NCBI GenBank assembly: GCA_020351995.1
Contig: CP070674.1
Location: forward strand, 319,261-383,260
DNA length: 64,000 bases
Origin: Candidatus Zixiibacteriota bacterium
Lineage (GTDB): Bacteria > Zixibacteria > MSB-5A5 > GN15 > FEB-12
Direction: 5' to 3'
The notes under the pieces: generated by a model
What the model was told of the DNA's origin: nothing
Databases searched by the model: none
The model's input: the letters and a program-made list of their open reading frames with translations, nothing else
Shown: positions 8,432 to 15,628 of the stretch, one piece after another
Layout of the letters: the number at the start of each line of letters is the position of its first letter
How positions within the stretch are numbered: position 1 is the stretch's first letter
Program-made: the position numbers and the translations under genes

Positions 8432-10480
8432 ATGTTCCGTCGTCCTATCAAAGAAATAAACGCGGAGTTCATAGCCGAGGAAAAATACCTCGATAGTATC
8501 CAGAAGACCGTCAGGGAAAGCTGTGTCGCCGCCTCTATGTCGCGCAAAGATATCGCGTCAGTATTGCTGGCCATAGAGGAAGGGGCCACCAACGTAATAC
8601 GACACGCTTATCTGTATGAGAAGGGTATCATAAGGCTACGCGTTGTCATCTACCCGAAACTGGTAGTCTTTTCTCTTATCGATTACGGGCGCTCCTTCCA
8701 GCCCGAGGGGTCCGGAACGCTCGACCTGGAGCGTCTGGTGGAATCGGGGCGCAAGGGTGGGCTGGGATTCTACATGATCCAGAAGATCATGGACTCTGTG
8801 GAATACATTTCCACCGCCGGCTTCAACGAACTGAGGATGATAAAGCACATTAGCGAGCCCTCCCCGGTGGGGCGCACATTCCTCAGGCGGCTGTTCACCC
8901 TGCGGGTAAAGTTCTCGATCTGGACATTCTTCATCATGCTCATTATCATCGGGGTGTCCATCTACTACTTCGATTACCGAACGTCGGAGCAGATGTATAA
9001 GCACAAGCATGAGACTGTTCGTGCCCTGGCCGAAACTATCGCCGACCAGGCAGCCGGTTACTTCATCAATCGCCGGTCCGATGTTGAGTTTGACGAGCTT
9101 ATTGTCAGCTATCGGCGCGCCAATCCGGAATTGCAGCTGGTGGTCCTGACCGATGGCGACGGGATAATACGGGCCCATTCGGACGATATCCTCAATATAC
9201 GGAAGCCGTATGTTGCGCCCGACCAGGTGAGCGACTCGATAATCGGTGTACCACAAACGTTCAGAAGCGAACATCGTGTCTGGAGTTATCTGGTCACGCC
9301 GATTATGACCGGGGAGAGGCTGCTTGGCAATGTTCATGTGACATATTCAACCGCGGGGATATATCTGCAGCTGACCGAATCCCGGAAGAAGATCTTTTTT
9401 CTGACGGTGATCCTCGTCCTTTTCGGCATCCTTGGAATATATCTTTTGTCGAACTACTTTGTCAGTCCCATCCTCAATATTACCAGGCGTGTGCGAAGGT
9501 TTACCTCGGGTGACCTCGAAGCTGAACTGCCCCTGACCGGTGCCGAGGAATTTTTCGAGATATCTCGAGCCTTCAATCAGATGATGACTCGGCTCAGCCA
9601 GGATCGCAGGAATATTGTCGAGCGCGAGAAGATGGCCAAGGAAATTGAAGTGGCCTCTCAAATCCAGCAAACCCTGCTACCCCGGCAGCTTCCATCTTTG
9701 CCGCATCTGGAGATTGAGGCTTTCTACCGAGCGGCCTCGATGATCGGAGGCGATCTGTACAATGTCTTCAGGATCGGCGACCACCGGTACTGCCTCGCGG
9801 TGGCCGACGTATCGGGGAAAGGGGTACCGGCCTCGATGATGATGTCGATTTTGCGAACGGTCATTCAGATTCAGGCCTCGGAGCAGGTGTCGGCCAAGAA
9901 GGTTCTCTCAAAAGTCAATGACTACCTTGTGGATAACATGCCTCGGGGGATGTTTATAACTGTCTTTCTGGTGATTTATAACGCTCGCTCACACAAGATC
10001 AACTTTGTATCCGCGGGCCATAACCCGATGCTGTTTTTCAGGGCTGATAAACAGGAGATAATGAAGTTCAACCCCAAAGGCATGCCACTGGGAATTCCTA
10101 GCACGAATAATGTGTCGTTTGATGACAGTCTTGAAGAAATAGCCTTGACGCTGCGTCAGGACGATCTATTCTTTCTTTTTACGGACGGTGTTACGGAGGC
10201 TCGCGATCGTGACAATAATCAGTACGGGTTGGACCGGCTGACCAACTTCCTGCAGAACTACCTGCTCGAGAAAAGCAAGGTAGAAGTTTCCGAATTGTCG
10301 AAAGCGATTGTGAGCGAGCTCGATGATTTTACCGGTTTTCTCAAGACAGCCGACGACGTTACGTTCATTCTGGCCCGCTGCGATCTGTCGGAGAAACAAC
10401 CTTCCCAAGAAGCCAATACGGGAGTCGAGGTGAAGCACATGCAGGATGAACACCCGGCTGACTCCCCTGATAGAACCTGA
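8432..10480 (+). CDS. Membrane partner-switching protein: RsbW-like ATPase, sensor, HAMP, SpoIIE phosphatase
   Basis: A 682-residue protein with an unusual order. Residues 1-140 form an anti-sigma-type GHKL kinase domain: N-box EEGATNVIRHAY, G1 IDYGRSFQP, G2 GGLGFYMIQKIMD. A membrane segment (about 165-185) leads to an extracytoplasmic sensor region, then a second membrane segment (about 315-340), a HAMP linker (FTSGDLEAELPLTGAEEF) and a PP2C-like SpoIIE phosphatase domain with EVASQIQQTLLP, IGGDLYNVF, ADVSGKGVPASMMMS, SAGHNPMLFF and LFTDGVTEARD. The start is ATG 8432; the longer open frame upstream merely overlaps the preceding gene out of frame. It should phosphorylate and/or dephosphorylate a STAS antagonist, most likely the one encoded next. 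That both activities sit in one chain is seen; the target is inference. Confidence 0.9.
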   Translation: MFRRPIKEINAEFIAEEKYLDSIQKTVRESCVAASMSRKDIASVLLAIEEGATNVIRHAYLYEKGIIRLRVVIYPKLVVFSLIDYGRSFQPEGSGTLDLERLVESGRKGGLGFYMIQKIMDSVEYISTAGFNELRMIKHISEPSPVGRTFLRRLFTLRVKFSIWTFFIMLIIIGVSIYYFDYRTSEQMYKHKHETVRALAETIADQAAGYFINRRSDVEFDELIVSYRRANPELQLVVLTDGDGIIRAHSDDILNIRKPYVAPDQVSDSIIGVPQTFRSEHRVWSYLVTPIMTGERLLGNVHVTYSTAGIYLQLTESRKKIFFLTVILVLFGILGIYLLSNYFVSPILNITRRVRRFTSGDLEAELPLTGAEEFFEISRAFNQMMTRLSQDRRNIVEREKMAKEIEVASQIQQTLLPRQLPSLPHLEIEAFYRAASMIGGDLYNVFRIGDHRYCLAVADVSGKGVPASMMMSILRTVIQIQASEQVSAKKVLSKVNDYLVDNMPRGMFITVFLVIYNARSHKINFVSAGHNPMLFFRADKQEIMKFNPKGMPLGIPSTNNVSFDDSLEEIALTLRQDDLFFLFTDGVTEARDRDNNQYGLDRLTNFLQNYLLEKSKVEVSELSKAIVSELDDFTGFLKTADDVTFILARCDLSEKQPSQEANTGVEVKHMQDEHPADSPDRT

Positions 10481-10597: not shown

Positions 10598-10987
10598 ATG
10601 GATAATATCTCGATATCACTTCAGGAAGGCAGCCGCAAAGAGGTTTCGGAAGTAAGAGTTGACGGAGTCATCGATACCCTTACCGCTGGCGAGCTGGAAG
10701 AAGTTCTGGACTCGCTTCTCAAGCGTGATCGCTTCAACATAGTCGTGGACCTGGCCGGGGTGGACTATATTTCTTCGGCCGGTTGGGGCATTTTCATCTC
10801 CCATATCAAAGAAGTCCGGGCTAATGGGGGCGACATCAAGCTGGCGAATATGATATCGAATGTGTACGAAATTTATGAACTGTTAGAGTTCGACAATGTT
10901 CTCACCGCCTACCCGTCATTAGACGAGGCCCGTGACGCTTTCGAGGGGCAACTACCCCCGGGCGAAAAAAAAAAGCGCCGAAGCTGA
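10598..10987 (+). CDS. STAS-domain anti-sigma-factor antagonist
   Basis: A 129-residue STAS protein of the SpoIIAA/RsbV type. The core reads FNIVVDLAGVDYISSAGWG, with the phosphorylatable Ser in YISSAGW, followed by KLANMISNVYEIYELLEF and the C-terminal helix up to LPPGEKKKRRS. It is the natural partner of the kinase/phosphatase protein encoded just upstream: unphosphorylated STAS would bind and neutralise an anti-sigma factor or other target. The start is ATG 10598; an in-frame TTG at 10589 is the alternative, and no strong ribosome site precedes either. The gene ends inside an A10 run, and about 95 coding-like codons continue in the -1 frame (separate entries), so the product may also exist in a longer form. 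Confidence 0.92.
   Translation: MDNISISLQEGSRKEVSEVRVDGVIDTLTAGELEEVLDSLLKRDRFNIVVDLAGVDYISSAGWGIFISHIKEVRANGGDIKLANMISNVYEIYELLEFDNVLTAYPSLDEARDAFEGQLPPGEKKKRRS
10969..10975 (+). promoter_or_regulatory. A-AAA-AAG slippery heptamer in an A10 run
   Basis: Bases 10965-10974 are ten consecutive A followed by G. Read in the STAS frame, the last part is A AAA AAG, the same heptamer and phase that drive -1 frameshifting in E. coli dnaX. A slip of -1 continues as GCG CCG AAG CTG… without a stop until 11260. A purine-rich gagggg lies about 20 bases upstream. A hairpin (11014-11039, arms GCTGAG/CTCAGC plus ACAAG/CTTGT) lies about 40 bases downstream, farther than usual for a stimulator. Transcript slippage, or a missing A in the assembly, would give the same fusion. 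Confidence 0.55.
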
Positions 10988-11262
10988 CACGGGTAACCGT
11001 TCTTGACACCGGGGCTGAGCCACAAGGGCTTGTCTCAGCTGCGTCTCGACCAACTCACACCAGTCTTCCGCCAGATCTCGAAGCAGCCGTAATCCGAATA
11101 GTCGAACAGGATCCTTTCGCTTCGATAAGTGAGATCAGGACCGAAATCAACAACCGGCCCGGAACTCTAACCACCACCTGGTGGCAGGTTTTCTCTATTC
11201 TCAGACAACGCAAACTGTTGACCAAGCGATCGCGGTTCAAGTACATACTGGGTCGCAGATAG
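10975..11262 (+). CDS. -1 frame extension of the STAS protein, winged-helix-like
   Basis: This frame is open from 10936 to the TAG at 11260-11262 and contains no ATG, GTG or TTG, so it cannot readily be an independent gene; CTG 10984 is the only near-start. Its 95 codons look coding. A linker rich in Pro, Ser and Thr leads to PPDLEAAVIRIVEQDP, then ISEIRTEIN, WWQVFSILRQRKLL and finally FKYILGRR. The pattern of helices followed by a basic, aromatic hairpin resembles a small winged-helix domain. I infer that it is translated as a C-terminal extension of the STAS protein through the A10 slippery run, or that the assembly lacks one A. It fills most of the 349-base space before the diguanylate cyclase gene. 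Confidence 0.55.
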   Translation, partial: APKLTRVTVLDTGAEPQGLVSAASRPTHTSLPPDLEAAVIRIVEQDPFASISEIRTEINNRPGTLTTTWWQVFSILRQRKLLTKRSRFKYILGRR

Positions 11263-11336: not shown

Positions 11337-12971
11337 ATGGTTATCCAGAACATTTTAGTGCTCTTGCTGGCTGCCCTTTGCGCCTTGCTGATGTTTTTGT
11401 TGATTTCCCGAATCCGCAGGGAAAAGATGCAGACGGCCGCCATCAGAAAGATGCGTCTGGAGGACTTCTCTGACTTCCTTCTCTCCAACACCATTGGCGG
11501 AGGGATTGTGGATGTCGCCCGCAAGGTATCCAATCTGCTGATTACCGCCTTTGGCTGCGACCGCATCGTGTTTTTGAGAAAGAAGCGGGGAGGACTGGAA
11601 CTCAATTATTACCACGGCATTCGCGGTTTCAGCAGGGCTGATTTCCATCTCAAATACAGCGAGGAACTGGCGGAGCTTTTAAAAGGAGACTTCTTGCCGC
11701 GGAACACCGATAGTCTCAGACACCTCCTTCCGGACCGTTTTGTGTCCCGCCTCGACCAGTACGGCGTGGATATGTTCTTCCCCATTTTCTGGCGAGAGAA
11801 CCTTTACGGAATCTATTTCATAAGGAGTAATATTGAGACGCGATCGCCATCATTTGTACTCCTTGTGGCCAGCCTGGCCCAGTCACTATCGGCGGCCTAC
11901 CACATTAAATGGCACGAGTCGAGAATAGAAGCACTCCAGAAACAGCTGGACAGTTCGCAGAAACCAAATGTGGCTGATAACCAGGAGCCCCCGCAGGAAA
12001 CCCGCTTTCTAAAACTGGTCCGTCACCGCAACACCGAAGTGATTGTGTCAAGACTGATGGAGTCCTTCAGAGAAGCCGCCAACGTCGATCGGTTCGCCTT
12101 CGTCTACGCGTCCAGGACTGAAGGCGGCGAACCGCGGAACCTCAGACATGGTGTTGATGGGCTGGTGGAGATTGTCGACAACGCCTCACTCAGCGAAATA
12201 ATTCAAACCATCAGTGACCGACCCTATGTGCCCGTGGGTCAACTGAAGACAACCACTGCCGAGACACGCCGCTGGCTCGAGGACCTGAAGGGTAAGGGGC
12301 TTCACTACGTGGCTTCTTTTCCGCTTACCCCCCAGCGCGGCGGGGTACTTGCGTGGGCCGGGGCCGGGAATGCCGGGGCGGTGGAAAAACAGCTCCAGCT
12401 TTTCAAGGCCCACACCTTCCATCTCGTCGACAATGCCGAGTCATTTGAGAGGATCGAAGAGATGTCTTATACCGATAACCTCACCGGTCTGGCTAACCAG
12501 CGGTATTTTTTCCGCCGTTTGTATGAGGAAATCAACCGGGCCAAACGGTACAACCGTAGCCTGGCCCTGATTATTTTCGACCTGGATGACCTTAAATACA
12601 CCAATGACACCTATGGTCATCTAGCCGGTGATTCGGTGTTGAAGCAGATGGGGGATATCTTACGGGGGTCGATTCGTGCTATCGACGTGGTGGCTCGTTA
12701 CGGGGGTGACGAGTTCTGCATCATTATGCCGGAGGCTGACGGCAGTATGTGCCTGAAGTTTATGGAGCGACTTCAGAACGAGATCATCAACGCTCGGTTC
12801 ATGGTGGAGGGCATTAGTGAACCGCTGCTGTGCACCGTGTCCATGGGGGGCGCGGTTTATCCTGACCATGCCGATGACTCGAAAAAGCTCATTTTTGCGG
12901 CCGACATGGCTCTGCTAAAGGCCAAGGAAATGGGGCGGAACCGGTCACTTCTATTTGCCCCGAGCATCTAA
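11337..12971 (+). CDS. Membrane-anchored diguanylate cyclase (GAF-like regions, GGDEF)
   Basis: A 544-residue enzyme predicted to make cyclic di-GMP from two GTP. Residues 5-25 form one membrane segment (ILVLLLAALCALLMFLLIS); residues 40-200 and 225-370 look like two GAF-type sensory regions. The GGDEF domain starts at DNLTGLANQRYFFRRL (about 380) and has the substrate-binding FDLDDLKYTNDTYGHLAGD and an intact YGGDEF active-site loop near 455. RAID five residues before it is the RxxD inhibitory site, so product feedback is expected. There is no EAL domain. It lies between a partner-switching module and an exopolysaccharide locus, both frequent c-di-GMP clients; a functional link is inference. 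Confidence 0.93.
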   Translation: MVIQNILVLLLAALCALLMFLLISRIRREKMQTAAIRKMRLEDFSDFLLSNTIGGGIVDVARKVSNLLITAFGCDRIVFLRKKRGGLELNYYHGIRGFSRADFHLKYSEELAELLKGDFLPRNTDSLRHLLPDRFVSRLDQYGVDMFFPIFWRENLYGIYFIRSNIETRSPSFVLLVASLAQSLSAAYHIKWHESRIEALQKQLDSSQKPNVADNQEPPQETRFLKLVRHRNTEVIVSRLMESFREAANVDRFAFVYASRTEGGEPRNLRHGVDGLVEIVDNASLSEIIQTISDRPYVPVGQLKTTTAETRRWLEDLKGKGLHYVASFPLTPQRGGVLAWAGAGNAGAVEKQLQLFKAHTFHLVDNAESFERIEEMSYTDNLTGLANQRYFFRRLYEEINRAKRYNRSLALIIFDLDDLKYTNDTYGHLAGDSVLKQMGDILRGSIRAIDVVARYGGDEFCIIMPEADGSMCLKFMERLQNEIINARFMVEGISEPLLCTVSMGGAVYPDHADDSKKLIFAADMALLKAKEMGRNRSLLFAPSI

Positions 12972-13133: not shown

Positions 13134-14120
13134 ATGGGGAAATTAACATACTACATGGTCTTCGCGATAGTCTTCATTGGCTGCGCAGCCGCAGGATACG
13201 CGGCCGAGGGGTATCGGATCGGGGCCGGAGACATGTTGGAAGTGCGTTTCTGGCAGGACGCCAGCCTGAATGTCGATGTGCGAGTGGGACAGGACGGTAT
13301 GATCAATATCGACATTATTGGGCAGGTTATGGCAGCCGGCAAGACCGCTTCCGAGCTGCAGGACGATATCGTGCGCCAGATGTCGAGACTGAATACCCGT
13401 ATCTCGCAGGCTGTTGTCAGGGTAATCGAGTATCAATACCAGTACGTGTTCGTTAAAGGGCAGGTACTGACACCCGGTAAGCTAACCTTCGAGGAAATAC
13501 CCGACCTGTGGACGGTTATCAACGAGGCCGGGGGTATAACCGAGATCGGGGATCTTACCCGGGTGACCATCATTCGTGGCGGCAAGGATGCCGGGAAAGT
13601 AGAGGTGGTGAACGTTATCGAGGCCATAGAATCCGGCAATTTGGACAAACTGCCTCAAGTCCGCCGACAGGACACCATAGAAATCCCGCGCACTCCGGCC
13701 GGAATCCCTTCCGCGGACATAAGTCAGCGGGTGACACGCAAAAACGTTATCTATGTGATCGGCGCCGTTACCACACCGGGTCCGATAACCTTTCAGGAAG
13801 ATGTCGATGTACTGGAAGCGCTGGCCCTTGCCGGCGGGCCGGTCTTTGAGGCCGACTTAAAGAAAGCGAGGGTTATCACCAAAGACGGCTTCTATGCGCA
13901 GGCAATCGAGGTTGATCTGGAGGAATACACGAAAACCGGCACACCTGCGCGCTATATAATGAAGAAAGAGGACACCTTTGTCCTGCCGTATCGGCGCGAT
14001 GGCTTCCTCGGGGTGGGTCTTGGAACGGCGGCGACTTTTCTCGGTATTATCACTTCCGCTGTCATAATCTACGACATTATTTCAACTCCGGACGGCGGTA
14101 TCGGAGGCGGTGGAGGCTAA
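13134..14120 (+). CDS. Polysaccharide export protein, Wza/OPX family
   Basis: A 328-residue outer-membrane polysaccharide exporter. A signal peptide runs to about AAGYAAE; no lipobox Cys is placed as in classical Wza. The poly_export domain follows (YRIGAGDMLEVRFWQD … VGQDGMINIDIIGQVMAAGKT). Two SLBB-type beta-grasp regions begin near QYVFVKGQVLTPGKLTFEE and NVIYVIGAVTTPGPITFQE. A hydrophobic stretch near the C-terminus (FLGVGLGTAATFLGIITSAVIIY) precedes a Gly-rich end, suggesting a membrane-spanning tail. A strong AAAGGAG site precedes ATG 13134. It is the first gene of the polysaccharide cluster. Confidence 0.92.
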   Translation: MGKLTYYMVFAIVFIGCAAAGYAAEGYRIGAGDMLEVRFWQDASLNVDVRVGQDGMINIDIIGQVMAAGKTASELQDDIVRQMSRLNTRISQAVVRVIEYQYQYVFVKGQVLTPGKLTFEEIPDLWTVINEAGGITEIGDLTRVTIIRGGKDAGKVEVVNVIEAIESGNLDKLPQVRRQDTIEIPRTPAGIPSADISQRVTRKNVIYVIGAVTTPGPITFQEDVDVLEALALAGGPVFEADLKKARVITKDGFYAQAIEVDLEEYTKTGTPARYIMKKEDTFVLPYRRDGFLGVGLGTAATFLGIITSAVIIYDIISTPDGGIGGGGG

Positions 14121-14134
14121 AGGGGATGTCGACC

Positions 14135-15628
14135 ATGACCAAGCCTAAATCTACCAAGCAGATAGACCTTCGAGAGGTTTTGGCCATTGTGCGGAGGCGT
14201 AAATGGCTGGTGATATTGCCGCTGGTGATCATCACCGCCGTGTCCTTTGCCAGCACTTATTTTCTCGAGCCCAAATACCAGTCGTTCACGGTTATCTGGA
14301 TTGACAAGCCATCGAGTGTCTCGCGGGAACTGCTGAGTATTGTGGGAGAACGCCGGGAAACACATGACGAAATGCAAAGCCGCACGCTGGCCCTTCAGAC
14401 TGAAATAACCTCGAAGAATTTTCTGGAGCAGTTGATCCGGGATTTGAAGCTTGACGACGACCCTGAGATAACGCGCCAGGCCTATAAAATGCGGGAATCC
14501 ACGCCGGAATACAGCCTGGAACAGATCCGCAACAGTATTCTCGTTGAAAAACTACGCGGGCAGATCTCTGTAGCCTTTCATGGCTGGGATCAGATCCGGA
14601 TTACGGTGGAGTCGAATGACCCGGTCAAGGCAAGGGATATGGCCGATCGGTTGGCCGAGATCCTTGAGCGAGAGAAGGCCAAATACGAGATGGAGAAGAT
14701 TCTGGACAATCAGTCTTTCACTGACCAGCAGCTTGAGAAAACCGAGTACTATTATCAGTTGGCCCTTGACTCCTTGAATTCCGCCAGGGCCCGTCTATCT
14801 CGCCTCCAGTTGCCGGACAATATCGCGGCTGAAGGAAATCAGGCGGCTATCTCGGCCAGTCTGGATAGGACGAGGTTGGACAGGGAAGATGCCGAACGTG
14901 ATCTGGCGTCTCTCAGAGCCCGGCTCGACGAATTCAGCCTGGGCGGGGCGAGGCTGCGGTATACCGATACCATCGTGGAACTTCGCACGACTATCGACGG
15001 TCTGATTTCCACTTACGGAAGTATGACGGAACAATATGGTTGGAACGAGCAGAATGTAATCGATGTCAATATTAGAATAAACAACAATGTCAGGCAGCTG
15101 GAACAGATAATTGGCGCCGCTGTGGCCAGACAGTATGCGTCCTACCCCACCAACCAGCAGGAACTGCTCACGCGTTACTTTGTCGTCCAAGAGAATGTTG
15201 ACATCCTGACCTCCAAGGAGAAACGTCTCAGGCAGCCGCTGGTCGAGTTGGAGCAGAGAATTGTTATTATTCCAAGGCTGGAATCGGAGATTCTGGAGCT
15301 GGAGAACAGGGTTGAGAATGCCCGGCGATACCGCGATGCCTTTCGTTCGGAGGAACGCACCGCCGGCATTTTATCCGAGCAGGTTAAAGACAGAGTCAAG
15401 TACAAGGTCATCGAACCGGCCCAGCTTCCTCTGTCGCCTTTCTGGCCGGACAAGAAGAAAATCATTGTGATTGGATTCGTACTCGGTCTGGCCCTTGGAG
15501 CTGTTTTCGTCTTTTTGACGGAACTGTTCGACAACTCCTTCCGGAAGGTTGAGGATGTTGAGGAGGTGCTGGGAGTGAAAGTCCTGGCCACGATACCGAG
15601 AATTGACAAACTGAGGGTGATGCGATAA
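14135..15628 (+). CDS. Wzz/GumC-type polysaccharide copolymerase
   Basis: A chain-length determinant/copolymerase of about 497 residues without a fused kinase. The N-terminus has the Wzz motif IDLREVLAIVRRRKW and membrane segment 1 (LVILPLVIITAVSFASTYF). A long periplasmic coiled-coil region fills about residues 170-420. The C-terminus has the Pro-rich QLPLSPFWPDKKK, membrane segment 2 (VIGFVLGLALGAVFVFL) and the cytoplasmic tail VEEVLGVKVLATIPR. An AGGGG site (14121-14125) lies directly against ATG 14126 but nine bases before ATG 14135, so I prefer 14135. The cognate tyrosine kinase is encoded two genes downstream. Confidence 0.9.
   Translation: MTKPKSTKQIDLREVLAIVRRRKWLVILPLVIITAVSFASTYFLEPKYQSFTVIWIDKPSSVSRELLSIVGERRETHDEMQSRTLALQTEITSKNFLEQLIRDLKLDDDPEITRQAYKMRESTPEYSLEQIRNSILVEKLRGQISVAFHGWDQIRITVESNDPVKARDMADRLAEILEREKAKYEMEKILDNQSFTDQQLEKTEYYYQLALDSLNSARARLSRLQLPDNIAAEGNQAAISASLDRTRLDREDAERDLASLRARLDEFSLGGARLRYTDTIVELRTTIDGLISTYGSMTEQYGWNEQNVIDVNIRINNNVRQLEQIIGAAVARQYASYPTNQQELLTRYFVVQENVDILTSKEKRLRQPLVELEQRIVIIPRLESEILELENRVENARRYRDAFRSEERTAGILSEQVKDRVKYKVIEPAQLPLSPFWPDKKKIIVIGFVLGLALGAVFVFLTELFDNSFRKVEDVEEVLGVKVLATIPRIDKLRVMR

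Follow-up and report, generated by a model that had tools for sequence, protein, structure and literature searches.

Few cellular genes are known in which transcriptional slippage is programmed. The classical one is dnaX of Thermus, which in T. thermophilus carries a run of 9-10 A's between domains, has near stops in the other frames and gives a short and a long product (PMC1088944, PMC5009743); in Shigella, the longer product of the transcription-regulator gene mxiE needs slippage (PMC1088944, PMC5009743). A published criterion for purposeful slippage is a run of nine A's whose length is conserved among homologues (PMC1088944). As for the architecture of the protein described below, CapS is reported to be a STAS-wHTH repressor phosphorylated by CapK, in which phosphorylation dissociates the CapS dimer (PMC13373217).

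We analysed a stretch of 64,000 nucleotides, hereafter the window, from a Candidatus Zixiibacteriota genome of 3.6 Mb in a single contig, whose best named relatives are metagenome-assembled genomes of the same candidate phylum. The window holds a STAS-domain gene whose A10 tract is read here, with good confidence, as a programmed transcriptional-slippage site yielding both STAS and STAS-WH, the latter extended by a winged-helix-like (WH) segment. The features of this gene were as follows.

10598-10987, plus strand: STAS-domain ORF of 129 aa (Pfam PF01740, E 8e-17; PDB matches TM1442, RsbV and SpoIIAA)
10775-10777, plus strand: Ser codon aligned with the SpoIIAA phospho-acceptor Ser58, the second S of YISSAG (PDB alignments, conservation)
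10965-10974, plus strand: A10 tract, putatively slippery, in the STAS-WH linker (A9-A11 in 60/60 f1 and f4 genes with both domains)
10969-10975, plus strand: A-AAA-AAG heptamer in the phase of the STAS frame (phase not conserved: 10/32 genes with WH in -1)
10985-10987, plus strand: TGA closing frame 0 behind the tract (sequence)
11004-11006, plus strand: TGA closing the +1 frame behind the tract, at a distance of 9 codons (sequence; product lengths)
10975-11262, plus strand: WH extension, 95 codons long and closed by TAG, in the -1 frame (profile score, selection, helical HTH model)

At the tract the STAS frame reads GAA AAA AAA AAG CGC CGA AGC TGA, its stop beginning 10 nt past the A10, and the heptamer lies in the dnaX phase; both were read correctly in the original prediction, which had further described the -1 frame as open and devoid of start codons. 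Its openness was confirmed (10936-11259, closed by TAG at 11260-11262), and the absence of TTG was not, since one TTG occurs at 11218, too near the end of the WH for a useful start. The WH scored 82 bits against its profile, like fused homologues. According to the tract length in the mRNA, the predicted products are 129 aa (A10), 135-136 aa (A9 or A12) and, with A11 or A8, a STAS-WH protein of 220-221 aa; the short product is likely the STAS ORF translated from unslipped A10 mRNA.

Orthologues were gathered over the whole class, which is the whole phylum in the genome set used, and the examined set comprised 108 genes. In the related families f1 and f4, every two-domain gene (60 genes, 59 genomes) carried a linker tract of nine to eleven A's, with A10 in 51, A9 in 8 and A11 in one, and both the tract and the WH were conserved across dozens of genera. 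This conservation, together with the presence of only four A10 tracts in the genome, makes the coincidence of an A10 tract and a WH in -1 more than chance. The flanks of the tract were variable, except for a G directly after it in 92%. The gene was fused in one frame in the remaining 13 families, where the longest A run was 7, and this provides the unbroken STAS-winged-helix homologues that the original prediction had proposed as support for coding; only one gene of these families (G086) had no WH match. Two f1/f4 genes lacked a detected WH. One (G079) was cut by a contig end; in the other (G009, L018, contig G009:C301) WH and tract had been lost together and a STAS-only gene was kept before the GGDEF gene, a case showing no more than that STAS is retained after loss of the WH. 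One genome (G013; L007, L062) carried two STAS-WH copies, an A10 with WH in -1 and an A9 with WH in +1, which are either paralogues or the product of a mixed bin.

That the tract has been conserved as a programmed source of two products is highly likely from these comparisons, which also support the proposal of two protein forms, STAS and STAS with an extension. Another matter is which machinery slips. The original prediction had pointed to the -1 signal of dnaX at A-AAA-AAG. If ribosomes slipped back one base on the A run, as they do in E. coli dnaX, they could do so at A-AAA-AAG or A-AAA-AAA, and an in-phase heptamer of one type or the other was indeed found within all 60 tracts; a ribosomal contribution is possible, because every A10 includes such a heptamer. 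The frame of the WH behind the tract was 0 in 24 genes, -1 in 32 and +1 in 4, so that a -1 shift would be usable in 56/60 genes, those in frames 0 and -1, whereas the remaining four need +1. The A-AAA-AAG form was in phase in only 10 of the 32 genes with WH in -1, and the run was kept at 9-11 although 7 bases would be enough. Among the 60 genes, no conserved stem-loop was found downstream (mean folding z -0.12, 4/60 below -2), and a Shine-Dalgarno-like site upstream was present in 9/60 and not conserved. On a tree of STAS and WH, the presence of the tract changed once and the frame at least 15 times, as counted on one tree in which many inner branches are weakly supported; a tract that outlasts so many frame changes speaks for RNA polymerase, and against the ribosome, as the source of the frames. 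A tRNA-Lys(CUU) was also found, as it is in Thermus, for which a 2016 review takes this tRNA as unfavourable to ribosomal slippage on AAG (PMC5009743). Frame-indifference and the lack of a conserved stem-loop or Shine-Dalgarno site thus favour slippage by RNA polymerase, which is very likely the slipping agent, over the dnaX-type ribosomal mechanism, which is unlikely.

The frames that miss the WH are closed soon behind the tract. Within 12 codons, 97% of such frames in the 60 genes had met a stop, against 50% for background positions in the same ORFs and 43% for control linkers from families without the tract; both WH-missing frames were closed in 56/60 genes, against 24% and 20%, respectively. 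These counts cover close relatives and hence are not independent of one another. In all 24 fused f1/f4 genes the +1 frame was closed within 8 codons, yet a -1 ribosomal shift never enters this frame, and its closure in fused genes would be needless under the ribosomal explanation. The tract length did not set the frame, A10 occurring with the WH in 0, -1 and +1 in 24, 25 and 2 genes. The same observations bear on phase variation at the DNA level, in which replication would alter the tract length and toggle the WH between cells, and which Baranov et al. describe as an alternative at such runs (PMC1088944). Homopolymers are readily mutated and the frame does differ between species, but A10 accompanies the WH in all three frames, nearly all lineages stay at A10, and the alternative frames are closed whichever frame holds the WH, which leaves phase variation very improbable. 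Against slippage by RNA polymerase itself counts that the choice of frame should shift the product ratio, unless slippage is very efficient.

That the -1 segment is coding, as originally proposed from its winged-helix-like translation, was borne out by its conservation over dozens of genera and by selection. In the closest split pairs, dN/dS of the WH was 0.11-0.29, which is purifying selection, and profile scores were alike in split and fused genes. One of these pairings set G060 against its congeners G057-G059: G060 lacks the G that lies behind the tract in the latter, and its WH is found in +1 instead of -1, while the tract is still A10 and the WH still conserved. The original prediction had also considered that the assembly had lost an A. 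Homopolymer errors are possible in a genome assembled as one long contig, like that of the window, so that a true run of A11, or else a decaying pseudogene with a relic WH, could be imagined; however, the identical state, A10 with WH in -1, recurs in many independent assemblies from different groups, including several whose contig names (k141) indicate short reads, and the split WH is under purifying selection. Assembly error and pseudogene were both rejected on conservation and selection, the chance of either being negligible.

A further alternative is that translation of the WH, as a protein of its own, begins within the -1 frame, in which case the A run would do no more than encode a lysine-rich linker. 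The WH is self-contained, and in another gene, coaBC, the coaB of one genome (G023) appears to own an ATG. On the other hand, the WH of the window offers no usable start besides the late TTG, its homologues are fused in other families, and the A10 is retained although AAG encodes the same residue; since 52% of the Lys codons outside the tract are AAA, three lysines alone do not require A10. A separately started WH is therefore hardly credible.

Under the preferred reading, in which RNA polymerase slips, A's would be added or dropped at the tract, and mRNAs in all three frames would be present downstream of it. Those that join the frames (A11 or A8 in the window) would give STAS-WH of about 220 aa, and in all the others translation would end within about ten codons, leaving a product of 129-136 aa that consists of the STAS domain and a short tail. 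The tract appears to be kept for as long as the DNA-binding end is kept, and one gene thus probably makes a short and a long protein. The function of these products may be considered from the surrounding genes, whose order around the STAS gene was kept in distant relatives.

8432-10480, plus strand: protein with HATPase_c_2, sCache, HAMP and SpoIIE domains (Pfam; gene order kept in relatives)
11337-12971, plus strand: diguanylate cyclase with a GGDEF domain, the next gene of the cluster (Pfam; conserved neighbour)
13134-14120, plus strand: polysaccharide export protein (Pfam; conserved as neighbour)
14126-15628, plus strand: Wzz-type chain-length protein (Pfam)

The STAS domain is of the SpoIIAA/RsbV type by Pfam and PDB alignments, with a conserved phospho-acceptor serine, and the HATPase/SpoIIE protein is likely both kinase and phosphatase of this serine, the HATPase phosphorylating it and the SpoIIE domain removing the phosphate. 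An alignment-based model of the WH showed a three-helix HTH core with a low-confidence wing and was better than the poor single-sequence fold. The structures that matched it best were HTH domains that bind DNA, although all at E values above 0.6; the WH sequence gave nothing significant against PDB and NCBIfam, and Pfam HTH_Tnp_Tc3_2 was found in 12/24 WH members, remaining below the cut-off for the window protein. STAS-WH is probably a CapS-like DNA-binding regulator, the function of its WH being read from these weak HTH matches. The STAS protein alone, a partner without the DNA-binding end, would share the kinase and the STAS dimer surface and would thereby set the dose of active STAS-WH. 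Whether the regulator controls the neighbouring c-di-GMP and polysaccharide genes is suggested here only tentatively, as somewhat less than an even chance.

A-rich tracts were also surveyed genome-wide by pattern searches. On both strands of the window genome there were twelve A-runs of at least 9, and all four A10 lay in the sense strand of a gene or at a gene start, namely in STAS-WH, coaBC, dnaX and at the start of mnmE. In ten f1/f4 genomes (the window genome and nine others) there were 2-5 A10 tracts each, and by a tally made by hand 30/39 of them coincided in position with one of these four genes; no such match was found in four genomes from other families. The tract of coaBC, A9-A10 between CoaC and CoaB, was present in 23 of the 26 f1/f4 loci that were complete. 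CoaB lay in frame 0 in 17 of these and in -1 in 6, and stops were close otherwise; slippage there would yield CoaC alone and CoaBC. That of dnaX (A9-A10) occurred in 17/22 f1 genomes, in both listed f3 genomes and in none of f4, and that of mnmE (A9-A10 near the start) in 10/22 f1 genomes and one f4 genome. In the relatives with the latter tract, printed sequences read by hand placed MnmE mostly in -1 to the nearest ATG, and slippage may gate MnmE itself. At least three more genes of these bacteria appear to use the same device. It is rather probable, at a lower confidence than for the STAS gene, that A10 slippage is throughout this lineage a standing two-product device for several unrelated chromosomal genes (the STAS-HTH regulator, coaBC, dnaX and, as a gate, mnmE), so efficient that the downstream genomic frame is nearly neutral.

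Several single loci were noted during this survey. In the window genome, the coaBC A10 is at G000:C1:2574487 (L174, L179; relatives L179-L204), with CoaB in -1; the dnaX A10 is at G000:C1:2671041 (L177, L239), behind the clamp-loader domains, where the other two frames stop within 4 codons, as in Thermus; and the mnmE A10 is at G000:C1:768341 (L167, L209), just past the ATG and right after yidC. The coaBC of G023 (L197) has no tract, and its CoaB apparently starts at an ATG of its own in a separate frame, which would be another route to two proteins. Outside f1/f4, a gene with an ATPase-like half (L280, G114) ends soon past an A10 and a 356-codon -1 frame continues, a possible case of slippage in another family. 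Two further genes, PP2C-like (L288, G010) and QueG-like (L291, G027) as named by reading their translations, have an A10 near the 3' end of the ORF, where slippage would alter only the tail.

In the open-access literature, no relevant paper was found on slippage in Zixibacteria or on slippage with coaBC, and the papers found for slippage with anti-sigma factors do not, by their titles and abstract openings, concern it. By comparison alone, a slippery tract is seen to have persisted while the frame downstream of it changed 15 times or more. A partner-switching regulator would have the proportion of DNA-binding to non-binding forms built into its gene, and apparent pseudogenes, coaBC and mnmE included, would become working genes, which calls for caution from the annotators of such genomes. 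The reach of slippage as a general gene-expression device becomes a directly testable question.

We know of no HTH extension and no slippery tract described for the STAS proteins SypA and HsbA. Their systems resemble this locus in other respects: SypE-SypA likewise combines a kinase/phosphatase with a STAS protein, controlling biofilm (PMC10120452), and in HsbA-HsbD a STAS protein likewise works with a diguanylate cyclase (PMC5085249). Closer in architecture is CapS, which carries a wHTH behind its STAS domain and shares a conserved phospho-acceptor serine and an adjacent GHKL-type kinase gene, and for which the accessible part of its report mentions no use of slippage (PMC13373217). The CapS order, STAS and then a C-terminal HTH, is present here, with a low-confidence wing and weak HTH matches; however, CapK (HTH-STAS-GHKL) and the immune operons are absent, the neighbours being the HATPase-sCache-HAMP-SpoIIE gene and GGDEF/polysaccharide genes, and PADLOC gave no match for a fused homologue. 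By analogy, STAS-WH plausibly works like CapS, without being classed as CapS. With E. coli dnaX the window gene shares the A-AAA-AAG heptamer, but not a conserved phase, stem-loop or Shine-Dalgarno site, and its long form may lie in any of the three frames. The likeness to Thermus dnaX covers the run between domains, the near stops and, as predicted, the short and long products; here, in contrast, the gene encodes a STAS-HTH regulator, its long form lies in different genomic frames from one species to another, and slippage is deduced from sequences. Finally, the mxiE protein is unrelated and plasmid-borne, whereas STAS-WH is chromosomal and conserved over dozens of genera.
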